A stretch of DNA of 64,000 nucleotides from Patagioenas fasciata. Lineage: Eukaryota; Chordata; Aves; Columbiformes; Columbidae. The stretch covers positions 6,844,001 through 6,908,000 of the forward strand of contig NC_092526.1 of assembly GCF_037038585.1 (NCBI RefSeq), given 5' to 3'. The notes beneath the pieces are model-generated. The model was not told the DNA's origin. It saw only the letters and a program-made list of their open reading frames with translations, and searched no databases. This document shows, in pieces, positions 3,703 through 64,000 of this stretch. Both the position numbers and the translations under genes were made by a program. Numbering within the stretch: the stretch's first letter is position 1; each line of letters starts with the position of its first letter.

Positions 3703-3945
3703 TCATAGAATCACAGAACAGTTTGGGTTGAAGGGCCCTTCCCAGCTCCCCCAGTGCCACCCCTGCCATGAGCAGGGACATCTTCACCAGCTCAGGTTGC
3801 TCAGAGCCCCGTCCAGCCTGGCCTGGGATGTCCCCAGGGATGGTTCATCCACCACCTCTCTGGCCAACCTGGGCCAGGCTCTCACCACCCTCAGTGTAAA
3901 AAGTTTCTTCCTCATGCCCAGCCCAGGCTGTGTGCTTTGGGGAGC
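3703..3945 (-). mobile_element. CR1 LINE fragment, 3' end
   Basis: It begins with TCATAGAATCACAGAAC, the reverse complement of the CR1 3' terminal octamers. It continues with the TTTGGGTTGAAGGGCCCTT block and the TTTCTTCCTCATGCCCAGC block. The element is 5'-truncated and diverged. The right border is approximate. Confidence 0.85.
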
Positions 3946-30100: not shown

Positions 30101-33100
30101 CTCCAAGAAAAGCCAGAAAATTATTGTGAGCAGAGCCAGTAACAGTGTGCGCAACTGATTTTCTGTGAGTTATTACTCACTTATTACTACTTACTTAGCT
30201 TTATCAAATAGTAGGCAATTACTTATTTGGCAAAGGGAAGCTGAATCAGTGTTTACTACAGGTGATTCCTACAGCTCGTTTATCGTCATACTTTGCTTTT
30301 CCGTGTCTAATTTGAGGCTTCATCTTATTTTCAAAAATACCTGTAAGAAACTCGTGATGATTTCAAAGGTATTGCAGCCTATGAACCTCTGGGTAGGAAA
30401 CCCTCACTATATTCATCTGTGAAGCACCACCTGGAGCTGAGTACATAATTAATGTCTTCTCTGTTAATACCATCATCAAGTAGTATTTATAACCAATTGG
30501 AACTCAGTGAAGAAGCCAAAATGATGGTGTTTCTGCTGTTGGGACCACACAAAGGCTGTGGCCGCAGGACTGGTGCTGAGGTCCCTCCATCACAGACAGT
30601 TGTTATGAGTGTAGCTCCACGCTTGACGGCTGCTGCAGCAGAACTCGGATCAGGACTGGGGCTGCAGTAAAATAAACCATGCGCTGGGAATAACTTGGAG
30701 GCAAAGGTCTTGTTTCATTGATGCTCCTGCTTTGGGGTGAGATTCAGAAGGATCTTGGGTCCCTGGAAAGCTGTTCCAATGACTGAGAAGGACTTGAGTA
30801 AAACTTGGCTTCCTTATGATACAATTTTTAGGAGAGCTTTCCCAGCTGCTTAGGTTCACAACACAGTGCCTATGTCCTGAGCTGTACGAGCCAGCTCCCT
30901 AGTTAGGAGTATAGTGGAGTTCTTCAAGGACCAGAAGGTGACCCGTAGACTGAGCTGAGCTTGACTTTGTGGTTCAAGGACCCTTAGTGAGGTTCGGCAT
31001 CTATGCGCAGGATGCTCCCAGAAGAGCTGAGCTCTGCTTCAGTGGGGCATGGGTGTTTCCAGTTTTCCTCTGCAAGAGCCCAACTCTGATTTAGGACATG
31101 AAGTAACTGGTTGCTCCTTGCATGCACTGGGAACCATCAGCTCTTTAGGATTGCATGAGCATTTCAGGATCAGGAGCAGAATACGAGACATACCTTTACT
31201 CCAGTACATCTTGCAAACTATGCAATGTAAGAGCTCAGGAGGAAAAAAACCTTCACGCATTATATAGGGTGAGCAGCTCCTTTAGCATGCTAAAAGCTTC
31301 ATAAAGGCGTTACAACCTGCTTTGGCACACAGAGCTTTGTTTATTTTAGTAAGTGACTGAACACTCAAAAAAACAAATGAAGTCCATTCAGCAACATGAG
31401 CATTAACACTCCAAAATGGGTTTTGAAGAAAAAATAAAATTTGGAATTAATAGCATTCCTAGTGTGTTGTTGTTAAAACACTGTCCATGAATTATTCATT
31501 TCTGTTAAGAAAGCATTACTTCACAAAAGGGCTAAAAGCTCGGCAAAGAAAGAACACCACTAATCCAAATATTAAGCTTTTTCTGTAACATCCTTTGATC
31601 TCTGAAATCCATCTGAAGGAATCACTTTATGGAAGTTAAGAGCTTTTTTCTTTTTGACCTTAAGTGAATTTGATTCAAATATACATTATGGCTCTCGAAT
31701 CTTAAAGACCATTAGCTGTACATCTAATGCACATCAGAAGCCTGGGTAATAATGTCATGAACTTATTTTGAATAAAGGCTTCAATGCATTTCCTCATCTC
31801 AATACTCTTAAGGGTTTTTAAAATCACATAAAGTTAAAAAATGTCCTAATCCTTTCACTTTTTGCATGGTGGTGAGCATTAGTGGCTATACAAAACCTTG
31901 CTCAAGTTATTGGAATCATGCAATTATTAAGGGATACGTGGATACAAGATGAAGGCAGAGGCATATACTAAATGATGAAAAATAGTATTTTTTTCTTCAA
32001 TGGGAGGTAATTATGTTGCTAAAAGTAACTTTACAAGAAGATTTGTATTTAGTTACTTAACTCTTTCTTAAGAATCCTGTAACTCTCCCCAGCTCTTTGC
32101 TAGCTCTATGTACTCCCCCTGTCTCAGGGGTTAATGTTTCCTATGACTGAATTTCAATTAATTAATAAAATAATCCTCCAGCCATCTGTCTATTTGCTTC
32201 CTAAGTTGCATTTTTCACTTTGGAGCAGTTTGAAAACCTCCTGCTTTGTTCAAAAACCCCCAACAACTCATGACCTCAAGAATGCCCTAAAAAACCATCT
32301 CCGAAGCATTCGCTGCAGCTTGGAGTGACCCCTGAGTTCTGCATCCCTGCTCGGTGGCTGCGTGAGCCCCTGTGGGGCTGGGGGTTCCGTCCTGGGTCCC
32401 ATCTGTGCTGCAGTGCTGAGGTGTTGGGGAGAAGGGGTAGGAGGGGACTCACCGCCAGCACCACACGTCTGGGAGCACTGCGACCAGGCCGACCACGGCG
32501 AGAGCCGGCAGTCCACCGTGCACCCCACCACGCACCGGCTGCTCGTCTCCAGGGGCTGCTCCAGGCGAAGCTGCGAGGTGACAAGGAAACAAGAGCGTCA
32601 GTGTCCTCATGCCCCCAGCCACCTCCTGCCGCCGCCGGGCACCGAGGCACGAAACCAAAAACTGGCAGCGACTCCAGTGGGATGGCAATGTTGGTGCTTA
32701 CAGGGAGTTTTCCCGAGTGTGCAATTGGTGAAAGCAGCTTCAGCATTCCCAGAATCACAGACTGGTTGGGGTTGAAGGGACCTCTGGAGATCATCCAGTC
32801 CAACCCACCTGCTAAAGCAGGTTCACCAGAGCAGATCACACAGGAAGGTGTCCAGGTGGGTTTGAATGTCTCCAGAGAAGGAGACCCCACAGCCTCTCTG
32901 GGCAGCCTGGTCCAGGCTCTGGCACCTCAAAGTAAAAAAGTTTCTCCTCATATTCAGATGGAACCTCCTGTGCTTCACTCTGTGCCCGTTGCCCCTCATC
33001 CTGTCACTGAGCACCACTGAAAAGAGTCTGGTGTTGAAGCACTTAATGTGTTAGAAGCCTTCAGGGTTTAGGTCCTATTTGGAGAGGACAGTCCCAAACT

Positions 33101-36100
33101 TCTTAGCAGTGTATCATCTCCCTGTGGCCAGCTTTGTTGGAGCCACGGTGCAGGGTCTACAGCTGTGCCCCATGCGTGCTTCTCCAGCCCTCAAACATCC
33201 CATATGATTTGAGGAGTGACACCTCCCACTAACACCCCGGGGGTGCTTTTGTTCCCCAAAGCACCCAACTGCTCCGCTCCCAGCACCAAACTTCTCCACC
33301 ATTTATTGCCGATGTCTTGGTGCGGTTCAGAAGGTATTGGCTTTCTAGAAACAAAACGAAGCCCCGGTGGTTTCCCCACCCGTGCCCACGCGTGTCCATC
33401 CTCACCCGCTGGCAGAGCTGTGTGCTCACGGTGGCCCCGTCGCTGCGCCGGCAGCTGAGGAGCCGTCGCCGCTCTCCGTGCCCGCAGGTGGCATTGGCAC
33501 CCAGCTGGCACCCGCTCCAGCCTGCGGACACAAAGCGAAGGACGCAGGGCTGCAGGTCATGGCTGTCACTCTGCTCTCACGTGTTTTTAACCCAACGTGT
33601 GGGTTCCCCTCCCCCTAACGCAGCACATCCCAAACCCAACAACAACCCTTATATAATAAATTTGCTCTTAAAACCAAGCAAGTCTGGGAGGACGAACTCC
33701 CAACTTTGCACTCAGACATCCCCTGAACGAAACCAGCACCTCAGGGTGCACAGAAAACTGTTAAACGCTGATAAAGTGTATCAGTTAAACCCAGCTGGCG
33801 TATTTACAAGAGTGGATTGTCTGAAGTAAAATTTCACTTTGATAAAGTAGCTGGGGATGTTTCTGAAGGGTAACTCTCGTTTAACTTATTTCTCGTCTCA
33901 AGGCAAAGCTTTCCATTATTTAAAACTAAGCTCTAATGCTTGTGAAATAAAAACAGTATTTGTAGTAGAAGAAAATTAATATCTTATTACTTTTCTGATT
34001 TTATGATGGCTGGTATACAACTAAATAAAAATAAACCTTAAAATACCATTTAAAATATCTCTGCCTTTCTCATTTCTCCAGGCTAGTTAAAACAAAATTC
34101 ATTTTTCCTTTTGTTTGTTTGTTTGCAATGGATCTAATTGCTTCTAGAGATCCTAAATAATGGATTTTGTTCTCAATAGCCTATGCGCACCCATATAACC
34201 CATATTTGCCTTCAAACCAGACTTCTTTTGGTATTACTGGCTTCACTGGAATCACAAAGATGATACTCTTCTAACTGGAATTTTGTAATTAATTCTGTTG
34301 ATAACCCAGGGAAAAAAAGGGAACCCATTTAACATGTTTTATTTCCAAAGTACCTGCAATGACAAAGTAAAAATTGTGCATTTGTCCACTAACCTGCAGA
34401 CAAAAAAAACCGCAGGCCTGTAATTAACTTCAGTTGAAACCAGTGCTGTCTACACATAACTCTTTTAATATCGAGGCTTCAACCAACACTACAAGCAAAT
34501 GTAACTAAAACCACAACTGGATAGAGCCTTTAAGGAGCTGAATCTTTAAATGCAAGGGTATTTGGAAAAGCACAAGGTCAAATTATATATCATATCCCCT
34601 ATATTATATATTAATTATATATATTAATGATCTATTGTCTATTATCTATTATATATATTAACTATTATCTATTATATAATAGACAATAGATAACATAATA
34701 GATAAAATAGATAACAGATAATATATATAATTATATTTATATATTTTATATATTTACAATTATATATAATTATCTATTATATATATTATCTATTATCTAG
34801 TTTATATATTATATATCTATTAGATAATAGATATAATAGATAACAGATAATAGATATATTAGCCTCCTCCTAAGAGTATATTGGAAAGCTCCACTTACCT
34901 GTTAGATTGTACTGGTATTGGAAGCAATTTTGGTTAAGAATACATGGCTTCATTTGTGACTCTTCAGGGCAGGGCTTTGTATTGACAGAAGACCTTAGCA
35001 CTTGTCGAGTTCGGGTTTGCATAATATTCGGGTCGCACACCTACATACAAAAGTGATGGACAGCACAGGAGACCCTGGTAAATCGTACAGGCATCAACCG
35101 CCTGGGTTGTTCCATGCACATCCACGGCCGTCCCGAGGTAAGAAATAATCACACTTCTGTCCTAAAGATACTTAAAAGCGTATGAAGGAAGGTAAATGCG
35201 ATTCAAAGGTAAGAATCCAATATGACTAAAAGTCATATTTTGTCCACCCTGATATGGCTATTTTAGGAACTCCTATACTACTTATTTCCATAACTTTTTG
35301 GAAGGATCCTTGGGGACACAGGGATAAAAACTGTGCCATTTTACTGTGCTCTGCTTTCCACCTCATTCCAAAATGCCTAGTAAAACGCCATTGTGCTAAA
35401 TAATGGGACAGGATTTCTGGCACGATTAATGCGTTTTTAAGTAAAAACTGATGCTACAGCAAAGTTTTCATTCCTAGGAAGGACTCTTGTAATTGCCTAT
35501 CAGTTATGATGCTGACAACAACATGGGGTGAATGTATGTGATACAAATACTGATGTTTGATTGCCTATAAACCAGGATTTGCTTGTTTACATTTTCACAT
35601 TAATAGGTCAGTTTTCATTTGGTTTTGCATGAAAATAGTTTGGTTTTAGCAGTCCTCCCATTCTCACTTAGCACTGTGCCATGGGCCTCTTTTCCTTCCC
35701 ATTTTGCTGCAGATATAGCAATAGTGACCAACGCTTTCAGCCTTGCAAGAAACATCCCCTACACGCAAATTATTTGCTCGCCCCCATGAACCCCCTCCTG
35801 CAGCCTCCTGCGTACCTCTCCACTTGGGACGTCACCTGGAAGTGCCACCTGGCTCTGTTTACACATATCTTCAGTTTTTTGCCTTGGTTTACCTGATATG
35901 GGGCTGGGTCATGGGGAGCACGGTGCCCCAACATCCATCTCTCGTGCCAAGGGGAGAGGAAGGAGTCGCAGCACCAAAGATTACGCGCCTGCGACACCGG
36001 GCAAGGCTGATCGGTGCTGGAGAGCACTAAGGATTGCTGCTTTGTCTCACTAAACAAAATCACAAAAAAGTCTAAATAAGCTTATTCTGAAGCCAGGGTG

Positions 36101-42100: not shown

Positions 42101-44868
42101 CAAGCCCAGAGCTTGTCTTGGAGATGCTAAGCATGTGCAGACTGGGAGGGACTGTGCTGTGTGGTCCTCTCTCAAAACCAAACACAAATAACCAGAGTAG
42201 CTATAAAAGTGAGACAGCGCTGCTGTAAATTCGTCAAAGGGAGGGTTTTATCTGTCCATAAAAGCTCAAGCTGTTTATTGCCTCGTATCTGGACAGAACT
42301 ATTTAAACACATGCTCCATCCACACACAGTCATCTCAGTTTCACAACAAAGCGTTGCAGAACAGCTTGTGGAAACATATTGTTCGGTTAATTGGATTGGC
42401 ATACAGATGCCCTCAGATTTATGAATTAACAGCCACCATGGCAAAAGGGTGTGCGAGGAGGCACAGGGACTGTGGCACTCGGCCCTTCGACTGCCAAGAG
42501 CTTTGCTGCCTGATGGAGCGCAGCCCATGAGCTCCCGGCATCCCGTTCCTGCTTCCATGGGCTACAGAGGCTTCACCGTTGCCAAAAAGGCAAAAAACCC
42601 AGAGTGTCTTAAGGATATGAGGGTGCTTAAAGCTTCAAGCAGTCCTTGGTGACCAGGTGTCTGCCACCAAGGCACCTGAAAAAGATTACTGCGTGTTAAA
42701 ATGAAGAAAAGCGCTCTCTGAAAAAAAAAAAGTCAATGGCAAAGGAACAGCCCAACCACAGTGGGACTCTGAACCGCATCCAAGCATGTGTATTGGTTGC
42801 AAGTGTGTTATACTTCATCAAAGCTGTGCTGCTCAGGAGGAGGTGAATGCAGGAAATGAAACACAAGATTTTATTTGACATGTTCTTACCGAGTATATTG
42901 ATATGCTACACAAAATATTATGGAATGAAATTACCTGTGTCAGCAGTAGTATAAATGCCTGTCCAATAACCACTCAGAGTTTTGATAATGGCCCTGTTAA
43001 CACAGGGGCAATGAATATATGTTTGTCACTTAAATACATCATGCAAGTCTATTACAAAACCCTCAAGATTAAACCTGGAACCTACTTCAACACTGATCAG
43101 GGGGACACAATGGGTTTGAAATGACATGTTTTGAGGCCAGAGAGTTTTTGCAAGACAGAATTTGTAGCTTCTTTCCATCTTGCACACTTAGGAAAACACA
43201 GAAGCTTGAATCCCGGCATAATTCACAGAGTTTTGAGTATTTTGTGACATGCCAAATTATTCAGGCATCTTGCTGCTATGCCTTCTGTAGCTGTTGCCTG
43301 AAATCTTCCCTTGAGGTTCTGAGGAGGACAGAAATAGTGTCTGCTGAGAAGGGAGAGCTGCCATTCCCTCACATCTAAGGCCTGTCCAGAGGAGGTGCCA
43401 CCACCACGGTTTACCAGCAGGTTATTATGGCAGTTGTGCATCGCTCACAGGGCCTTACCCTGCAAATATTTCCTTGGACAGACATTCCTTACTGCAGCTA
43501 GAATTCTGGTCCCTTCACCTGCTCTATTAGTGTGGGTCCTCTCCCGCAGACCAACCGGAAAGATGGGTTGAAGCAAATGTCACAGTAATATCTATGCGTT
43601 TCACCAAGTTTCTATAGCTCAGTCTTTGTAGAAATATAAATAGCTCCAGATTCAACCATTCTGGCAGGACCTATTAAGCCTCATTTCCCTCAGAAAATAA
43701 TTTACTTCACTAGAAAGCAACTATCTCATGAAATGTTTGAAGGACAGGCAAGACTGACGCGTGAGGAACGGTGCCGCGGGAACACAAGCAGCAGAGCCTA
43801 CCTGCGGACACTTGCTCCACTGTCCCCAGTCAGACACCGCGCACTCACTGGGACAGTACAGGCTACACTTCTGCATCACATCCGGGATTTCAGCCTGACT
43901 ACACAGAGCGTTGGGCACCGTCTCCCCTCCGTGCTCCTCAGCAGCACTCACACACCTACACAGCAAACAGAAATCTTCATCAGAATAGCACACAAGCAAC
44001 GGATATCAACAGGTCTGCTTGACCCCAAATAGGACACTATATGTAACACAATAGCTATATGCTGGTCAAAATGCGAAATGAACAGGGTTAATACAAATCA
44101 AAACCAGCTACGTGCACGACGTGCTTTTGTTAGTCACAGATTTCAATAAGTACTTTAAATAAACATTTCAAACTTCATACAGAGGGATTTTAACTTTGAT
44201 TGCCTGACAGATAAGCCAAGAGAGAATAACAACCAGCAAGAACAAACCTTTGTGCTCCTGCTAGTAACATCCAAACATTTGGAAATAACTCAGCATCTCC
44301 ACATGCCAGGGGAATGAACACTTGCTAATAATGAACACCACTCTGGCGTGTGCAGTGCTATTACTTGGGGAATATGTTAGAAAATCAGAATAAGGAGGCT
44401 TTGCACCTCAGGGGGCTTTATGTATATATGGCATTTAGGTTGAAGAATTCTAATTTAAACATCATGCCTTCTTCCTGAAAGACATCTTGATCATAACACA
44501 AGGCTGCATCTCCGGGATAATTTTCCTGTAAACCACTGCACATAAATGCATGTTTCTTTCCAAATGAAATACACCGGACTCAGCAATGTACTCACTGTCA
44601 GACGGCCAGATATTGCAGATTTATGCAAATATGTATCAGCTCTTTTTAATGTGGAGTACCTGTGCTTTTGTCTTCACGCACCTGACTTTCCTCGTTTGTA
44701 TTCCTTCTCCACAGTGGAGGGAGTTTTGTTCGCTGTTGATTTTGCACGGAGACCACGGTTCTACTACCCAAGAATACTGATGGCACTCGCTGTAGCATGG
44801 GACTGCCTCGTGCACCTGCCAGGAGGAAGAATCAGAACTGTTCACTTGAACCACCCAGGTTAGCGTCT
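12066..44868 (-). CDS. THSD7B: THSD7B, 3' part: thrombospondin type-1 domain-containing transmembrane protein (13 exons)
   Basis: Exons in transcript order are 44868-44682, 43955-43802, 35040-34899, 33521-33406, 32570-32453, 26419-26274, 21239-21080, 20749-20576, 20486-20391, 19329-19247, 17681-17489, 13957-13870 and 12147-12066. All internal junctions are GT-AG and all phases match, giving about 578 residues to a TAA stop. The product has repeated TSP1 modules (WSxW and CxxxCGxG motifs), a cysteine-rich EGF-like module, one transmembrane helix and a short tail ending [13 protein letters not shown]7 proteins are large single-pass membrane glycoproteins with tandem TSP1 repeats. THSD7A is linked to endothelial migration and podocytes, while THSD7B is little studied. 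I prefer THSD7B over THSD7A because, as I recall the family, the segments [22 protein letters not shown] and [11 protein letters not shown] fit THSD7B. The family call is very firm and the paralogue call is strong. The N-terminal exons are outside the window. Confidence 0.93.
12148..13869 (-). other. THSD7B intron between the transmembrane and tail exons
   Basis: GT-AG intron of 1722 bp. It is mixed in composition, with a GC-rich patch near 12740-13030. No repeat family or second gene is recognised. Confidence 0.85.
13870..13957 (-). CDS. THSD7B: THSD7B exon: transmembrane helix
   Basis: 88 nt. It encodes [15 protein letters not shown] followed by the hydrophobic run [14 protein letters not shown] and a cysteine split across the next junction (TG here, C there). 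This is a single-pass membrane helix of about 23 residues, followed by a basic stop-transfer sequence in the next exon. The acceptor is CCAACAG and the donor GTAAAT. Confidence 0.96.
13958..17488 (-). other. THSD7B intron containing an old CR1
   Basis: GT-AG intron of 3531 bp between the linker exon and the transmembrane exon. It contains an ancient plus-strand CR1 remnant at about 14499-14760. Nothing else was recognised. Confidence 0.85.
14499..14760 (+). mobile_element. Ancient CR1 LINE remnant
   Basis: The order of short matches fits the CR1 3' region: TTTAGCCCAAAGAAAAGAGG, ACTGAGGAGGGATGGGATTG, then GGGAATAAATTCGGCTTAG and a diverged AAGAACTT-like block. It lacks the terminal octamers. 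The divergence is high, so borders are approximate. Confidence 0.6.
17489..17681 (-). CDS. THSD7B: THSD7B exon: EGF-like module and juxtamembrane linker
   Basis: 193 nt, 64 codons plus one base. It starts [18 protein letters not shown], a CxC EGF-like pattern continuing to [10 protein letters not shown], then a basic, cysteine-free linker ([20 protein letters not shown]) and [13 protein letters not shown] before the membrane segment. The acceptor is CACCTAG and the donor GTGAAA. This exon is among the best family identifiers in the window. Confidence 0.96.
17682..19246 (-). other. THSD7B intron
   Basis: GT-AG intron of 1565 bp. No repeats or coding signals were recognised. Confidence 0.85.
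19247..19329 (-). CDS. THSD7B: THSD7B exon: last TSP1 end and start of EGF-like module
   Basis: 83 nt: two bases finishing glycine plus 27 codons. It encodes [17 protein letters not shown], the closing cysteines of the last TSP1-like repeat, then SKPFSYCTQ, the first cysteine of the short EGF-like module. The acceptor is CTTACAG and the donor GTAGCT. It ends in phase 0, joining [13 protein letters not shown]. Confidence 0.94.
19330..20390 (-). other. THSD7B intron
   Basis: GT-AG intron of 1061 bp splitting the degenerate last TSP1 module. It is AT-rich and nothing else was recognised. Confidence 0.85.
20391..20486 (-). CDS. THSD7B: THSD7B exon: degenerate last TSP1 module, first part
   Basis: 96 nt: two bases completing glycine, 31 codons, one base. 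It encodes [16 protein letters not shown] followed by [13 protein letters not shown]. This repeat lacks the regular WSxWS pattern, as a divergent final module of the family. The NVT sequon may be glycosylated. The acceptor is CTGCAG and the donor GTACGT. It was recognised from phase continuity and the surrounding family order. Confidence 0.94.
20576..20749 (-). CDS. THSD7B: THSD7B exon: one nearly complete TSP1 module (EWSEWSSC)
   Basis: 174 nt: two bases, 57 codons, one base. It starts [17 protein letters not shown] and ends MQTRPCS. WSEW is a C-mannosylation-type motif. The stretch [15 protein letters not shown] carries the alternating arginines of the TSP1 layered core. Six cysteines are visible once the flanking glycines are joined. 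The intron to the next exon is only 89 bp (20487-20575). The donor is GTAGTG and the acceptor GTGCAG. Confidence 0.96.
20750..21079 (-). other. THSD7B intron
   Basis: GT-AG intron of 330 bp. Nothing else was recognised. Confidence 0.85.
21080..21239 (-). CDS. THSD7B: THSD7B exon: TSP1 module ([15 protein letters not shown])
   Basis: 160 nt, 53 codons plus one base. It encodes [15 protein letters not shown], a longer loop, and a cysteine-rich end with NALCGELPL and PCSVPCP. NLT is a potential N-glycosylation site. The acceptor is TTTTGCAG and the donor GTAAAG. Third-position GC is only about 36% (19 of 53), in sharp contrast with the preceding three exons. Confidence 0.95.
21240..26273 (-). 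other. THSD7B intron
   Basis: GT-AG intron of 5034 bp, mostly AT-rich, with a T run near 24159-24168 and a 17-base A run at 25905-25921. No CR1 fragment was recognised. Confidence 0.85.
25905..25921. repeat. Poly-A run
   Basis: Seventeen consecutive A in an A-rich context. No retroposed sequence is recognised upstream of it. Confidence 0.8.
26274..26419 (-). CDS. THSD7B: THSD7B exon: TSP1 end and next TSP1 start
   Basis: 146 nt: two bases completing glycine, then 48 codons. It holds [19 protein letters not shown], the closing cysteines (HRSCPVKPC), and the start of the next module ([15 protein letters not shown]). The acceptor is CCTAG and the donor GTACGG. It is the third exon in a row with very high third-position GC (42 of 48). 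It ends in phase 0, joining GGQCGEG. Confidence 0.94.
26420..32452 (-). other. THSD7B intron
   Basis: GT-AG intron of 6033 bp. It is mostly AT-rich, with no recognised repeat family or exon. Confidence 0.85.
32453..32570 (-). CDS. THSD7B: THSD7B exon: TSP1 module ([16 protein letters not shown])
   Basis: 118 nt, 39 codons plus one base. The first part completes the previous module (RCVVGC). The second part starts a canonical TSP1 repeat, [21 protein letters not shown], whose WSAWS fits the C-mannosylation pattern. The acceptor is TCGCAG and the donor GTGAGT. Third-position GC is about 90% (35 of 39 codons). The next exon completes GAGGQ. Confidence 0.95.
32571..33405 (-). other. THSD7B intron carrying a CR1
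   Basis: GT-AG intron of 835 bp between two GC-rich exons. It contains a CR1 3' fragment from about 32751. Confidence 0.85.
32751..33090 (-). mobile_element. CR1 LINE fragment, 3' end
   Basis: It begins AGAATCACAGACTGG and continues GGAGATCATCCAGTCCAACC, GGGCAGCCTGGTCCAGGCTC and the GTAAAAAAGTTTCTCCTCAT block. This is the reverse complement of a CR1 3' end. It lies in the same orientation as the host gene. The outer (5') border is uncertain. Confidence 0.9.
33406..33521 (-). CDS. THSD7B: THSD7B exon: TSP1 module (CGHGERRR)
   Basis: 116 nt: two bases completing a glycine, then 38 codons. It encodes [16 protein letters not shown], an arginine-rich strand, and [16 protein letters not shown] is a potential N-glycosylation site. 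The donor is GTGAGG and the acceptor CCGCAG. Third-position GC is about 87% (33 of 38), and the exon sits in an intron region with ordinary composition. CGHGxxxR is the classic TSP1 second-cysteine motif. Confidence 0.94.
33522..34898 (-). other. THSD7B intron with AT hairpin repeat
   Basis: GT-AG intron of 1377 bp. Its donor-proximal third is dominated by the AT-rich repeat at 34580-34860. Confidence 0.85.
34580..34860. repeat. AT-rich tandem and inverted repeat (TATCTATTA / TAATAGATA)
   Basis: About 280 bp almost free of G and C, built from alternating TATCTATTA and its complement TAATAGATA, with ATATAT spacers. Both orientations alternate, so it can fold into long hairpins, one centred near 34675. 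It starts 36 bp from a splice donor dinucleotide. Confidence 0.9.
34899..35040 (-). CDS. THSD7B: THSD7B exon: TSP1 module body
   Basis: 142 nt, 47 codons plus one base. It begins [15 protein letters not shown] and ends CFQYQYNLT, covering the arginine-rich middle and last cysteines of one TSP1 module and the first strand of the next. The acceptor is TGTAG and the donor a near-consensus GTAAGT. NLT, followed by G from the next exon, is a potential N-glycosylation site. Third-position GC is about 45% (21 of 47), unlike the next three exons. An AT-rich hairpin repeat begins 36 bp beyond its donor dinucleotide. Confidence 0.94.
35041..43801 (-). other. THSD7B intron, large
   Basis: GT-AG intron of 8761 bp. 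No CR1 or coding exon was recognised. A CpG-containing block near 39760-40060 looks like a possible conserved noncoding element and is described under findings. Confidence 0.8.
43802..43955 (-). CDS. THSD7B: THSD7B exon: end of one TSP1 module, start of the next
   Basis: 154 nt: one base finishing the split arginine, then 51 codons. It completes the previous TSP1 module (cysteines in NALCSQ, QKCSLYC) and starts another with [11 protein letters not shown]. The WxxW there fits the C-mannosylation pattern typical of TSP1 repeats. The acceptor is TGTAG and the donor GTAGG. It ends in phase 0, matching the next exon, which starts with GTG TGC GAC. Confidence 0.93.
43956..44681 (-). other. THSD7B intron
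   Basis: GT-AG intron of 726 bp within one TSP1 module. Nothing else was recognised. Confidence 0.85.
44682..44868 (-). CDS. THSD7B: THSD7B exon: start of a TSP1 module
   Basis: This is the most 5' exon seen, 187 nt. It encodes a linker followed by a TSP1 start with WVVEPWSPC and [11 protein letters not shown]. The final AGG arginine codon is split, with AG here and G in the next exon. The donor is GTGCG. I chose the acceptor at 44869-44870 because a pyrimidine-rich tract and TGCAG lie just before it. A weaker alternative acceptor (TTCAAG) at about 44845 keeps the same phase and would remove about eight residues. The exon starts with two bases of a split codon, so at least one more coding exon lies upstream, outside what I can find. 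Confidence 0.85.
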
Positions 44869-46634
44869 CTGCAGAAACACCTCAGCCAAAGCCAGGAAAG
44901 AGTACACTGAAAATTATCCTGGCTTACTCTCCTTCTGCTAACCGTGTTGTAATAGCTTTAAGTTCATTTATTCATTATTGACTTGCCAAGGGATTTTTAA
45001 GTATATAATAAAGAGTAGTATGCATGAAGCATCTTAGAAAACAGGATAAATAACAGCTATTTTCTGCAGCCAGAAGAGGAACTCCGTAAACATTTCATTT
45101 GCTCAGATTGCTCTCTCTATAATCTATCACACGTCATTTATCAGGATCATATGTACTGAATCCTTTAGTGTTTCAGAAGATACAACTTAAAACCAGCACT
45201 CATTTACTTCTGCTTTTAACATATCCTTGTAAGTCATTTACCATAAAAGAATGAAATTTCATGTGTCCTATAAATATTATTTTATACACAAAAACTATAA
45301 ATGCTTTTTTTCCCCTGCAAGTGACTTATATCTAACACATCTCCTAATCAAACATGGCTGTGTATTCACCTGTACTATGGTATCTCTGTAGACAGAAAAA
45401 ATAGAGCCAAAAGCTTGATAAACACTTCAAAAAGATGCTGGATATTCAGGCTGTTAGAAGCAGCACATTAAGATATAGTACACTTCAGCAGAGTTTTAAT
45501 TTTGAACAAATTAATGCATCAACAGTTCTATTACAGTAATAAATAAAAGACATTTATTTTGAATTCTGTTTGTCTGCAAAAGCCGATTTGAAGATAGAGT
45601 GTTCTCTGTTGCTTTGTATGAAGCACAATGTGCTGCCCTGAAAAAACAGAGTGTACCTAAAATTTCTTCTTCTATGCACCAAAAATCTTTTTAGCCTTGC
45701 TGCTGTGGAGCCATCCAGTTCTCACTATTAAAATAACTGTAAATCAATAGCCTTCCTCCAACTGCCCCTCACCCCCCAAAATAAACCCACACCAAAACCA
45801 AGTAATTCAGCCACAGGTTTAATAATTTATAGCTTCATTTTAAAATAGAAGATTATGATGTGCAAGTTGTAGCCACAACAATAAAGAAAACTTATTTGCA
45901 ACATTTTGGAGGTGGGTGCCAGGGAGCCAGCAAACAGAACTGGTGCCCCATCAGAAAACTACCTTCACACCCAATGAAAGGAAGATAACTTGCCAAAGAA
46001 ACTCCCCCAGAACAGCAAATGTCAGAAACTAATTTTAACTGTGGGTCTTTATAAAAGCAGTACACAGGTTTAGCAGAGGAGAGAGTAAGATAGGCTAAAA
46101 AGCGCAAAATAGATGAAGAAGAAGGAAGAGAGGACCATATAAGCTGGGACTGGTGGGGGCAAACAGGGCATGAACTGGTAAGAGCATCACGTTTCATGCA
46201 GGTGAAGGGGAAAGGAGGACGACAAAGGGGAAAGGCAGTAGTAAGATCAGTATGACTTTTCCCACGTATTATTAAGCACAAATCCTTTTTTGCAGCCTGT
46301 GCACAAGTAACATGAGAAAATGTGCAAAATTTATTAGGACTACTACGGCAGGGCTCAAACACACAGAGCGGTAATGTTTGGTACAACAACCTCCTTGCAC
46401 AAGCGAGTGGGGTCACCCTGCAGCCTTTCGGGGGTGCAGGAGGTGTGAGACATTTCCAGCTTTTGCTGGGCCTGCACGAAGGTCTGCGAAAGATCGCGGT
46501 GCCCTGCAGTCACTTGATACGGGCTAATGATTTCTGCATGTGGTGGTATTTGGCCTAACTATACGACACATGGGTATCTACGTATTGTATAACGTGCATA
46601 TAGAGGGTAGGTTTCCTAGGTTGAGCAAGTGCCA

Positions 46635-46690: not shown

Positions 46691-49600
46691 AATTGTTAGA
46701 AGTCATCCTAATTAGCTGTGCAGCCATGCTCACTAACAGAAATTGGTGTACACAAGAGCAAAGAGAGAAAGTCCTCGCTGAGCAGGACCTGTGCTCAGCA
46801 CCAACACGGAGGGAACCTGCAGGTGACGGGGACACAGCACGGAGAGACTCAGTGTGAAGTCACTGTCGTGCCCCGGCCAGCCTGTCACCCGGAGAGAGTT
46901 ACTGGCTCCTGCAGCCGTTTACCAGGGAGAATAACAATCCTTCTTTAGGCACTGTGAAGCCTTCAAATTCCCCAAAGACGGGCGGGAGATGGATGTTGAG
47001 ACAGGGAGTATTTATTAGCTTCCCTTGCTCCATGGGGGGAAGGAAGAACTACACTCTGCCTGTGTTGTCTGACAAAGCATAGTGCTGTCTGCAGGAGACG
47101 ATCAGTTGAAGAGGGAAATGTGTGCTTTAGGCATGATCAGAGTTTCTCTTGTTGAAGACGGGAGGCAAAACCAAGAGAAGGCGAAGCGCAAACTGTCCAA
47201 GAACTGGCTGCCAGTGTGCAGGGAACCTGCAGCCTGGGGACATTATCAATAGGCAGTGTTAAGTGATGTAAAACTTACTAATAAGTTCATTAAGAGCTGG
47301 GTGGGTGCCTGTTCCTGCTCTTCAGATTTCTGGAGGGGAGGATGAGGCTGGGAGAGCCTGGGAGGTGAGAGAGCAGGTGTTGCCTATGCCCCTTCAGAAG
47401 CACAGGGCCAGCCCAGCACAAGCTGTGGCTTTAGGGATTTTACTTTCCTTGCTCTAATTAATAGCAATTCCTCAGGGTTAGAGGGTATGGCTGTGTATCC
47501 CGCAGGTCACGACGTGAGCGCTGCCAGCCTTTCAGCGCTCATCTCATGCCGGCAGGCCCTGCCTCTCATCTGGGTGACACCATGAGCTTGGGCATCCCGG
47601 GCCGGTGTCTCAGTGACCCTCATCACCCTACATTAAACTCTGTTAAACCTCAGACCCCTCTGAACCCGCAAAGCCTCTAGCAGTAGAGGCCTAACATCAG
47701 GAATTTACAACTGTGTTTTGGTGGTCAAAATCTCCTGTGGTGTTTACCTGGTGTGATTTCTGTTTAAGAAAACCATCAGGGTTTGGGCAGGGCTGGGATG
47801 CAACGTGAACTAAAATCTACCCAAGGAAACGTGTGAGGACAAAACAGAGATTCCATACACAATGACACAAACACGTGTGATGTGAAGTGATACTTCAAAT
47901 GTGCTCTTTCAAGAGTGGGCACGATTGCAATAATGAAGCCATTAACAGAGCGCTGTATTCGCTGCCTAAGCGTGTCAGGCCGGTACAAAAACACATGAAA
48001 CCCCATCAGCTCTCTGACAGACATCCCCTGTGCGCTGGAGGAGGGAAGGCACACAACACTGGCCATACCCTAATAGCTGGGCAATCTGCTGCTGACCCAT
48101 CTGGTACTTCCCATTCAGTCACGATTGCAGGTGACACCTGTCACCAAAACTCCAAAATATAATTGTTACAAATAACCAGTTTTCTTCAGTTGTTGTGCTA
48201 GCACCGCTGCATGTCCCCTCCGTGAACAACCTCTCTGCTCTGCCCTGCATCTGTGCCAAGCAATTCCGTCTCCAGTAGCACCTCTGAGACACCGGGAAGG
48301 TGTAAATAACCACTGGGAGGGACAGATGTCTTCAGAGCAAGTCACAACATGTATCGGGTAGACTCTGTTACGCTTTTAAATAGGAGTCTCAACGAGATGC
48401 AAGATTTCCACGGGTGAAGCTCTGTGGGCTGGCATTTCAGAAGCTGTGGAGATAATTTGTGACTCTCTGCATTTAAAAAACCTCCATGATGTGGCATGTG
48501 TTCCTTTCCTCCAGAGGACTATGTTTTCATCCTGTTTCTCTCTCCTGGCTTGCCATCATCGGCTTTCAATCACTACCAATTCCTCGGTTTTTGTACTAAA
48601 AAAAAAAAGTTTTAAAGCCTTTTGCTCCTATCTTTTGCTAACAGCTGTGGTACTTAACAAGGTCAAACAGCTGATGCTCTTGATTTTGCATTTTCAAAGG
48701 ATTTTGGCTAAGTCTTAGCTATTCTTTGATCCCGCTAACCAGGGGATCTGGGAGCACTTCTGACCTCCTGGCTCCATGGGAGCACCCTGAACCAAGGCTG
48801 GGATGAGATGCGGTGTCCCCACTCTTCACCCAACCCAGGGACCCAAAATGAAGGGAGAAGGTTGGGATGTGCCCCCATGGATTCCTGGCTGCAACACAGA
48901 GTAGTCCAAGCTTCAAATTAGACACAGTCTCAGTATTCTGGCCCACATCACATCTGCTACTTCTGCTGCAGATACAGAAGTCTCTTGTCCAGCTAGGCCA
49001 CTCTCCTTCCCAACCACAAAGAAAACAGTTCCTTTGAAAATTATCTGCTTAATGCTCACTCTTCCCCAAACTTACACAAACCCACTATGACAGTGCATTT
49101 ACAGAAAACTTGTGACTGAGCCACCCAACGCCTGTATAGGTATGTACTACCACAATCCATCTCCCGAAGGACAGAAACTAACTGAAGTCCATGCGATGGG
49201 CACCGGGACCTGCTGTTCTGCTGGAAGCTGCAGACACCTGACCCACGAAGAGCTCAGCACCCAAGGGACCAGCCTGGCTCCATCCCTTAGCACCTCGCCT
49301 TTAACCCTTCCAAGAAATAAACACAATCAAAATACATTTGGCACTTTAGGAAATTAACTGTTTTCCTCAGTTTTTATGCATATTCACATGCTGGGTATAG
49401 GGCTCAAATGAGCCAAGGGGTGAAACGATACCTCAACAGGAGTTTTGCTGCTGTCTTTCACTATTACTCTTTGTACCGCTCTTTGTAGTAATGATTAATC
49501 TGGAATACATGGTCACCTCAATCCTAAATCAAGGTGATAGGCACAATTCTAAATAAATTAAAGGTAAGAAGGACAAAACCTACTTTTTAAGAGAGAAACT

Positions 49601-50015
49601 GCTGTAGCTTTGCCCTAATAAAATAAGCCAGCTCTGACTGACTCCAGTGCAAACCCTGAGTCCTTGATAAAGTATCTTGAAGTCGACTGTTACTTCAACA
49701 AGATAAATAAATGTTAATACATTTATTTTGTCTTTCAAAAGCTGAAGTTTGCATTTTAATGAGAAGTCCAAATATCTAACCATCAGAGAGCTCTGGTGTG
49801 ATTTATAATGTTTTGTAACTTATTTACTTACATGTAGGTCAGGAATAATACTGACCTTGGAAAGGACATACAGGGATGACTGCGCTTGCTCAACTGATGT
49901 GATTCATTAAAAGAAATTCATATCTATATTTCAGGTAGCTCTCCCGCTAAGCACCTGCAGAGTAAACTAGAACGAGGTTCTACGCTTCTGAAAATCATAG
50001 TGACTTCATATTTCA

Positions 50016-50113
50016 GTGAACATCAAGATTTATTGTCCCTCAAGGTAAATATTGACTCTGGTCTTGCCTCAGTCAATATTTTAGCTTTCATGACAGTAAA
50101 TCTTGGTGTTCAC
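50016..50113. repeat. 98-nt imperfect inverted repeat (hairpin)
   Basis: The left arm 50016-50057 is complementary to the right arm 50071-50113 across a 13-nt loop. The outer 22 positions pair completely if two G-U wobbles are allowed on the plus-strand RNA. An internal loop of about eight bases follows, then a 12-bp inner stem with one bulge. It could be a pre-miRNA-like fold or an old palindromic DNA repeat. No family is recognised. Confidence 0.85.
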
Positions 50114-50671
50114 CTCAACTAAAGTCAATATCTGCTTATTATATTAGAACAACCAAACTGATCACTGTAGCAGTTGCCTGAGACCCCGAGGACAACCTCT
50201 GCGCTATTCATTTCTAATAAAAATGGGCTAAATTCATTGCTAATGTAAGTTCATTTCACACCGCTACCCTTATACCAAGGTTACATTAGACCTAATACAC
50301 TGAAACAGCGAGAACTGAAGAAATAACAACCCACTTTTAAACTACGAAGAGCACCGTGAATAACATTAAAGCTAGAAACGACCTTATATAGGAAACAGAG
50401 ATGATTTGCTCCAGTTTGCAAAGACACTTGCTGGTAAGGAAATTCAAGCAGAGATACTAAAACCACTCCTACTGAGACTGGCAGCAATTTGCTCACTTTC
50501 AATACTTACTGCGTATGCACGTTTCTGTTCCCTGCACATCCAGGCTGCAAGAGGCAGCAGTGGGACCACAGCCAGCACTTCTCTTGCAACACAGAGATCC
50601 AGAGACATGCAAAGGCATTTACCCATTGCGATCACCTGCAAACCCGATTGCTACACTGACTCCATCTAGTC

Positions 50672-51396
50672 CATCCCCAGGTTCCAGTACAAGTTGGGGA
50701 ATGATCCATTAGAGAGCAGTGCAGGGCAGAGGGACCTGGGGATCCTGGTGGGCAGCAGGATGACCATGAGCCAGCACTGGGCCCTTGTGGCCAGAAAGGC
50801 CAATGGTACCTGGGGCGTATTAGAAGGGGGGTGGTCAGTAGGTCAGAGAGGTTCTCCTGCCCCTCTACTCTGCCCTGAGGAGACCACACCTGGAATATTG
50901 TGTCCAGTTGTGGCCCCTCAGTTCCAGAAGGACAGGGAACTGCTGGAGAGAGTCCAGCACAGGGCAACAAAGATGCTGAAGGGAGTGGAGCATCTCCCGT
51001 GTGAGGAAAGGCTGAGGGAGCTGGGGCTCTGGAGCTGGAGAAGAGGAGACTGAGGGGTGACCTCATTAATGTTTACAGATATATAAAGGGTGAGTGTCAG
51101 GAGGATGGAGCCAGGCTCTTCTTGGTGACAACCAGTGATAGGACAAGGGGTAATGGGTTTAAACCGGAACATAAGAGGTTCCACTTAAACTTGAGAAAAA
51201 ACTTCCCAGTGAGGGTGGCAGAGCCTGGCCCAGGCTGCCCAGGGGGGTTGTGGAGTCTCCTTCTCTGCAGACATTCAAACCCGCCTGGACCCCTTCCTGT
51301 GGAACCTCAGCTGGGTGTTCCTGCTCCGGTGGGGGATTGCACTGGATGAGCTTTCCAGGTCCCTTCCAATCCCTGACATTCTATGATTCTATGATC
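50672..51396 (+). mobile_element. CR1 LINE, end of ORF2 and full 3' UTR
   Basis: About 725 bp, collinear with CR1: CCCAGGTTCCAGTACAAG, ACTCTGCCCTGAGGAGACCA, CAGGGAACTGCTGGAGAGAG, GACCTCATTAATGTTTACAG, and a terminus of two TTCTATGA-type octamers. It is the best preserved element here. It is 5'-truncated, so it encodes only broken pieces of the ORF2 C-terminus. It lies opposite to the host gene. Confidence 0.96.
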
Positions 51397-61368: not shown

Positions 61369-64000
61369 TGACCAGCAAAACTCAGGATATTCAAAATAAA
61401 ACAAAACCAAATTACAAAATTTATGCCTCTCTGCTCCTGCCTGGCTTCCCCATGTCTTGGATGGATGGCTCTGGAGCGGGATGAGTTGTTAAACACAATG
61501 AACAGGAGTGGGCAGCTGGGTCTCCATGAGCATCTCCAAGGCAAGGCTTCCCACACAAAAGGAAAAGGGATTTCCCTCCCTTCCTCACTCAGCCAAAGAA
61601 AACGATTGTGGCTGCACCTGAACACCGCACAGTGAAAACAAAGCAACTAAGGAAAAAGTCTTATTGCAAACTCGGCAGGAGCTGCATGGTTTTACACAGC
61701 ACACAAAAGACGTCAGACATGTCCCCATTGCTGGCACTTGAGATTTCCACCCAAAAATGGGAACATGTACTCAGAAATGTCATCTGTACGTCATGGAAAG
61801 CCATGAGAGTCCCCTGTTACTGCCACTGCAGCCCCCTGGACCAGGCACAAAAGCAGCAGCAATCGGAAGCTGTTGGCATGTACAAAAGAGCATAAGGAAT
61901 CGTTGTGTTCTCATGGTCATACAGAGAGAAAGGGGCCTCAATTCTCCTATGTGCCCACTAGAAAAGATGCTTTAATGATTTCCAAAAATTACGGTTTTCA
62001 AGTTGTTTGCGCTCCTGGCATCAACACAACGCATCACCAGTGGGGAGGACCGAGGCAGAGAAAATACTGACAACTGATACTGGGGCAGACAAAACACCAA
62101 TAACTGACACTGTTTTAATGGCTGTGCTTTTAAGACCTCCTGGGGATGAGGTTAGGTGCCACAGCAGCTAAAATACCCCTTTCCTTGGGGAAAAATTATG
62201 GGAGGCTTAAAGAAAATTAGGATCAGTACTGAAGGGAGACCCCAGTGGTCTCCAGCAGAGGTGTAATGGCAGCTCCAAAATACAGACAACAAACCAAGAT
62301 ACAGTAAGATAACCTTATCTTAGCTGGGTGCAGTAATACATGTAGTCAGATTTCTCTACACAATATCTGTTTATAACAACTGACGTTTTTAATAATTCTA
62401 ATGATAAGAATGCTTATTTTTGCTGGGAATCAGCCCCCTTGGACTGAATGCCTATAGAACTTTGGTTTTCCCAAAGCAATGTGATACCAAACATCCACAC
62501 TTTACTCTGCCACGTTGTCTCTTGGATTGTTTTCTTTGCGAAATTCTATTTAAATTTGCTCTGGGTCCAGCAGGAACAAATGTACCCCAGGATACGTTGC
62601 AGGCAAGCGACCACGGCACAGCTGTACCCACACGGCACGGCACGGAATGCAGCCACTGCTGCCAAGAGGCAGAGGGCTTCATCCATGCAACCCTATTCTA
62701 TCTCTACAGATGCTGTTGCATTGCAGCCCAAACACGTCAACGTGTTCACGCAACTCTGTAGGACGTCAGGCTGCAAAGCGCAGACAGAGCAATAGCAGGC
62801 AGGAATAAGCACGTCTCCAGCGAGGTCGCGTTCTCCATCCGTCTGGCACAGCAATGGAGAGGCGAGCGCCCGTCTGACACGGCAGAGATAACGGGGCTAT
62901 TCCCACACACACTTCACATCATGCACATGGTTCTTCTCCATAGCCCTGCTCCATCAGCAGAATTACACACAGCAGTAATCCAAACCCGGGCCTCTGATAG
63001 CACCTAATGAACTTTAGAAACTCTTGAAAGAAGAATTAGCTTGCTCCCATTTCAATTGCTCTTTCTGTCTGGAAAGGGCATTGTTGTGTAGGTTGATTAA
63101 CTAGAAGATTTTTCCTTATAGTCCTCCTCTATCTTCACTCTTAATTCCACCCCATTACCCTAGCTACACCCCTGGGCCCCATCCTGTGTAAGTGCCGTCT
63201 TTCTTTTATATTTATGCCCTTTATGCGTTCAGGAACCGTTATGAACCCCAACAGACACCGCTCAGCTCCAGAAGCCTTTTCACACCAGTACTTCACTCCT
63301 CCCACTGCCCTGGCAGCCGGATGATACGGCTGGTGTTAAATACAGCACGAATTCCCATTCAGAAACAGCCTGGGCAACACACCCTACACACACCCTTGAA
63401 GCCCCTAATGTAAAGGACATTCAGGTTTATCCAGCCTTTGACAGAAAATGGGAACATACCATTCAAACATCACATTACTTTCTCTCCCCTGGCTTCTCTG
63501 GCCATTTACTGTGCTCTTCTCACACATTAAAGGGGCAGGCAAGCTCTCTATCTATGTTTATTACACAATTCAGTTTTATATCAGCATATTTAATTTGTTT
63601 ACACTGAACTCTGCTGCTTTAGCAAAGAACCACTGAGCTGAGTCTTATAGGATTAAATTCAATGGTTCCCTTAATTGCACTGCACTGACTCCTATAGGAT
63701 GCTCCACGTTGCTTTTATCTGCATTTTCCCACAAACTCAATAATGTATGTCTATATTGCATAACTGTTTTTACCCTTCTCTGAGATGACCCTAAAAAGAT
63801 TAGATTGGTCATTTTCTCTCAGGTTCCTGCAGATTATCACCCACAATATCCCCACCCCTGTATATGTGTCCCCTATCTCCCTCCAACACGTACCAGTTTT
63901 GAATGGTTCTGATTATACGATAGGGCCTGAAAAATAGCCAGGATCTCTGTGTTCTCCTCTTTCTAAAAACTCACTCATTTTCTCATTCTTTCCTTTACTC

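Follow-up and report, generated by a model that had tools for sequence, protein, structure and literature searches.

What kind of element is the hairpin at positions 50016-50113 of a 64,000-nucleotide stretch of the Patagioenas fasciata genome, and is it a source of small RNA? The stretch, referred to here as the window, spans positions 6,844,001 to 6,908,000 of the forward strand of contig NC_092526.1 (NCBI RefSeq assembly GCF_037038585.1), and the hairpin appears to lie within a THSD7-type gene. A first-pass annotation, made from the sequence alone, had described it as being shaped like a microRNA (miRNA) precursor, naming a decayed palindromic DNA transposon among the alternatives. The analysis presented here tentatively favors an answer close to that alternative. 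The hairpin would be part of a fold-back DNA palindrome of ~130 bp that is best explained as what is left of a small, non-autonomous transposon of the miniature inverted-repeat transposable element (MITE) kind, with TA ends. This reading is put forward as the leading candidate and short of confidence, and the relative weights given below to the rival readings are matters of judgement and were not computed.

Architecture and Stability of the Hairpin

The hairpin consists of a 5′ arm of 42 nt (50016-50057), a terminal loop of 13 nt (50058-50070), and a 3′ arm of 43 nt (50071-50113). This 98-nt arrangement, which had been read from the sequence at first pass, was confirmed by both alignment and folding. 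When the 5′ arm is aligned with the reverse-complemented 3′ arm, 35 of 43 columns are identical, with seven mismatches and one gap. On the plus strand, the 5′ arm is made up of an outer stem of 22 nt (50016-50037), an internal-loop region (50038-50045), and an inner stem (50046-50057), while the 3′ arm features the inner stem (50071-50082), an internal-loop region (50083-50091), and the outer 22-nt stem (50092-50113). Arm identity is 20/22 in the outer block and 11/11 in the inner block, with only 4/10 in the region between; five of the seven mismatches and the sole gap are thus clustered in the 10 columns separating the two stems. The two differing sites among the outer 22 pairs (50023/50106 and 50033/50096) form G-U pairs in the plus-strand fold, as had been proposed, and are mismatches on the minus strand. 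Folds of the terminal loop allow a possible 3-bp GGU/GCC pairing inside it.

Folding had been suggested as a check on the first-pass annotation, and the hairpin proves far more stable than shuffled sequence on either strand. The plus-strand RNA folds at -47.8 kcal/mol (z -10.68), where its shuffles average -16.3, and the minus-strand RNA at -39.0 kcal/mol (z -8.56); in both cases, 0 of 200 shuffles were as good. Stability well beyond that of shuffled sequence, which is one criterion for animal miRNAs, is therefore found on both strands. The fold contains 41 base pairs on the plus strand versus 36 on the minus strand, and the mean pairing probability is 1.0 in the outer stem and 0.98 in the inner stem. 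When 25,560 strand-windows of 100 nt (step 5) are ranked by folding energy and thinned for overlap, the hairpin stands tenth, and the nine more stable strand-windows are all GC-richer (0.57-0.73 vs. 0.37 at the hairpin).

The outer stem is also exceptional as an ungapped inverted repeat. It scores 16, the best score in 100 simulated 64-kb windows (first-order Markov) being 15. A scan of the real window returned 11 centers above the outer stem and two tied with it, all 13 of which are inside an AT-rich microsatellite at 34.6-34.9 kb. In this microsatellite (34582-34858), numerous inverted repeats overlap one another, and they rank as the strongest in the scans of the window. The hairpin is a real, non-random palindrome, and a chance origin is unlikely at the scale of the window.

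Probable Extension of the Palindrome and a Possible Transposon-Like Origin

The palindrome probably continues outward past the ends originally assigned to the hairpin, reaching 49997-50131. A BLAST comparison of 49951-50200 with its own reverse complement matched this interval over 139 columns at 73% identity (E 2e-15), and a second, separate aligner returned identical ends, 49997 and 50131. The self reverse-complement alignment places the left outer extension, ATAGTGACTT, at 49997-50006 on the plus strand and the right outer extension, given as its reverse complement ATATTGACTT, at 50122-50131 on the minus strand. Within the palindrome, a TA dinucleotide is found at either end (49998-49999 and 50129-50130). 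With the extension held in register with the stem, an equally good match occurs at 112 of 19,750 random places in the window. In a longer fold, the outer blocks are partly paired beyond an open 9-by-8 junction, with a mean pairing probability (any partner) of 0.08 and 0.09 for the junction and 0.78 and 0.68 for the outer blocks.

A motif scan further identified two exact copies of ATATTGACTYTRGT, one at the inner stem (50049-50062, plus strand) and one at the outer end (50118-50131, minus strand). These two sites are the only exact matches in the window, and the similarity between the inner and outer motifs is equalled at 40 of 4,978 random places.

The extended palindrome at 49997-50131, the TA at its ends, and the recurrence of the end motif at the inner stem all support a MITE-like element. 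The interval provides the terminal inverted repeats characteristic of MITEs, the outermost part having in-register support only. Palindromes of nearly perfect symmetry that can form RNA hairpins are an established type of MITE, as in Made1 (PMC1784062). Judged from these sequence features, the evidence leans toward a transposon as opposed to a tidy miRNA precursor. Under this scenario, a small non-autonomous DNA transposon would have arrived by transposition, and the palindromic element would now be immobile within an intron of the THSD7-type gene. As DNA, the palindrome would be without evident action. As RNA, a strong hairpin would be expected to form in the unspliced host transcript (minus strand) or in any antisense transcript (plus strand), and such a hairpin may be at most an occasional substrate of Drosha, Dicer, or ADAR.

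Several observations weigh against a transposon remnant. No second copy was found within the 64-kb window when up to three mismatches to a 20-nt outer stem pattern were allowed, and a short-word BLAST search of the window also revealed no second copy, returning 12 matches of 10-17 nt with E values of at least 0.19. By eye, no target-site duplication longer than TA is visible, including one of 8 bp as for hAT elements, which agrees with the earlier remark that no obvious duplication could be seen. TA is self-complementary, so that finding it at both palindrome ends adds no independent support for a target-site duplication. Without the register condition, the match between the outer flanks is ordinary, with 314 of 4,958 random places being as good, and ATATTGACTYTRGT with up to two mismatches is only moderately enriched (five places vs. 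1.99 expected, a count of five being reached by 4 of 100 shuffles). The arm identities of 20/22 in the outer block and 11/11 in the inner block are unlike those of a very old, neutrally decayed repeat. Finally, the arguments from the extension, the TA ends, and the motif were formed post hoc, from inspecting the sequence, and the small fractions given above for the extension and the motif therefore overstate the case. Viral contigs contained no exact match to a 20-nt pattern, and prokaryote genomes none to a 22-nt pattern, which says little since these are non-animal collections.

Alternative Explanations

An alternative possibility, considered rather unlikely, is that template switching during DNA replication made a one-off inverted repeat, or corrected the arms of an existing one, with no mobile element involved. 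Template switching is able to generate a perfect stem in one event or to mend a stem that is already present (PMC8794818). Such an event would account for a lone hairpin whose blocks are nearly identical and for no second copy having been found in the window, and it is also in keeping with the clustering of five of the seven mismatches and the gap in the 10 columns between the stems. What a single switch does not predict is the weaker outer extension or the recurrent ATATTGACTYTRGT, either of which may be due to chance.

It is also possible, if unlikely and not supported by the present analysis, that the locus is a genuine miRNA gene, which may have grown from a palindromic element and could be expressed either from the plus strand, antisense to the host, or from the minus strand out of the host intron. 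A strong hairpin is predicted on both strands, the plus strand being the stronger (41 vs. 36 pairs), and the stem is bounded on both flanks by the open junctions described above (0.08 and 0.09). Further comparison relies on published features of animal miRNAs. Most primary miRNA transcripts (pri-miRNAs) have a stem of ~35 bp that is cut by Drosha ~13 bp from the junction (PMC7668254), and the animal criteria of miRScore allow at most seven mismatched positions in the miRNA/miRNA* duplex and an asymmetric bulge of no more than three (PMC12594335). Duplexes of 22 positions were predicted for assumed Drosha cuts at 11, 13, and 15 bp from the basal junction. The plus-strand duplexes have six, seven, and seven of 22 positions unpaired, respectively, and those of the minus strand, which is the one that would be transcribed with the host, have eight, nine, and nine. 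For these assumed cut sites, the plus strand is thus predicted to fall narrowly within the miRScore mismatch limit and the minus strand outside it. The stem, at ~42 nt per side, exceeds the usual ~35 bp (PMC7668254) by ~7 nt and so departs from this feature, which is common and not absolute. In addition, the basal 13-bp ruler would cut through the best-paired block, leaving 30 nt between the arms as a loop. The precursor shape originally proposed for the hairpin is therefore compatible with its structure, but the fit is marginal given the long stem and a duplex that sits at the mismatch limit.

Database and literature searches do not favor a miRNA either. Searching the whole window with Rfam gave no family at its gathering score, although such a match would be helpful and is not required. 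Many lineage-specific miRNAs are absent from Rfam. A permissive search of 49800-50400 returned four matches, all below their cut-offs. Two of these were to MIR172, on the plus strand (25.8 bits, E 0.003) and on the minus strand (20.3 bits, E 0.097), against a cut-off of 70. MIR172 was rejected as a plant family that scores well short of its cut-off and that matches the palindrome on both strands. The remaining two were U6 at 49824-49931 (14.1 bits with a cut-off of 44, E 1) and the S15 leader (11.6 bits with a cut-off of 39.5, E 5.5). Six strings taken from the arms did not occur in the 5.39 million main texts searched, supplements being outside that search. None of the papers retrieved on THSD7B in combination with miRNA and intron dealt with such a hairpin, as judged by titles and the openings of abstracts. 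It might further be argued that selection on the RNA is evident from both outer-stem differences being G-U on the plus strand. This was rejected as weak evidence, since two transitions in a palindrome will place both G-U pairs on one strand half the time. Improbable, overall, is the proposal of an unannotated, lineage-specific miRNA or long-hairpin small RNA locus that is derived from the TA-flanked palindromic element and antisense to the THSD7-type gene.

The weakest explanation, a chance inverted repeat, can be set aside as highly improbable: order-3 Markov sequence totalling 76.8 Mb yields seven centers with a score of at least 16, such that a gigabase genome is expected to contain some outer stems of this grade, but here an inner stem free of mismatches, nearly in register, comes in addition to the outer stem, the whole fold has a z of -10.68, and the outer score was reached in 0 of 100 first-order Markov windows.

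Genomic Context

On balance, the gene surrounding the hairpin appears to be of the THSD7 type and to be read on the minus strand. Fourteen open reading frames (ORFs) were scanned with Pfam, with matches to thrombospondin type 1 (TSP1) domains counted at E ≤ 0.1. Four of them matched, all on the minus strand between 32.3 and 44.9 kb, and one was above the curated cut-off. This ORF (44639-44881), which matches PF19030 (TSP1_ADAMTS) at 27.2 bits with a cut-off of 23.8, is the nearest such ORF found, and the hairpin is 5.1 kb upstream of it. Two others are probable TSP1 exons, namely 33229-33576 (PF19030, 20.5 bits, E 5.9e-4, cut-off 23.8) and 32271-32597 (PF19028, 24.3 bits, E 3.8e-5, cut-off 41; PF00090, 19.8 bits, cut-off 21.6). 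The fourth, 43724-44005, is a possible TSP1 exon (PF19028, 16 bits, E 0.015, cut-off 41). The scanned ORFs came from two sets; in the list selected as cysteine-rich, 3/4 were TSP1-positive, compared to 1/10 in the other.

Two other scanned ORFs gave unrelated matches below the cut-off, to DUF6888 (E 0.031) and DnaT (E 0.0064), which were taken as chance, and the DnaT match has a better E value than the weakest TSP1 match (E 0.015). The cysteine-rich ORF at 48722-49048 had no Pfam match. A phmmer search with one exon fragment recovered only itself, and no second exon, among the 2,232 ORF fragments of the window, and when thrombospondin exons were sought with a regular expression, the single match was interrupted by stop codons. 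A search of solved structures with ORF 33229-33576 found no match up to E 1.

The TSP1 ORFs are all on the minus strand, and a plus-strand transcript of the hairpin would consequently be antisense to the THSD7-like gene, the orientation assigned at first pass. The intronic location would hold only if earlier exons of the host gene lie beyond the hairpin. Above 50.1 kb, two minus-strand ORFs had no Pfam match, and exons in that region were not searched for systematically.

Other structured or repeated sequences are present in the window. At 0.7 kb from the hairpin, a 100-nt stretch on the minus strand (50846-50945) with a GC content of 0.57 folds at -55.5 kcal/mol. A GC-rich inverted repeat at 3815-3880 has 30-nt arms that are 73% complementary around a 6-nt loop, and a 30-bp unit is present in two tandem copies with 79% matches at 62054-62112.

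Comparison With Known Systems

DNA transposons are few in birds. If the hairpin is a MITE-like remnant, the finding would be an ordinary one; if small RNAs were produced from the palindrome, it would represent one further case, in birds, of a transposon palindrome giving rise to a miRNA. Among the elements with which it may be compared, MER53 is palindromic, and Made1 has TA as its target.

Like canonical animal pri-miRNAs, the hairpin features open basal junctions, a small loop, and an internal loop; unlike them, it has a stem exceeding the usual ~35 bp (PMC7668254), with the best-paired block at its base. The galluhop mariner MITEs are non-autonomous DNA elements described from six bird species, and the short forms whose lengths are stated (550 and 575 bp) are considerably longer than the ~130 bp seen here, a comparison of length and not of sequence (PMC5556988). 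MER53 is a repeat that gave rise to the hairpin precursors of miR-1302, which is specific to placental mammals (PMC2996404), and the parallel with the present hairpin is likewise not one of sequence. Made1, the source of hsa-mir-548, consists of a pair of 37-bp inverted repeats separated by 6 bp (PMC1784062). In contrast to Made1, the present hairpin carries an internal loop in its arms and has no second copy known, yet both are short, near-perfect palindromes with a small center that can form an RNA hairpin, a likeness that is one of architecture and not of sequence.
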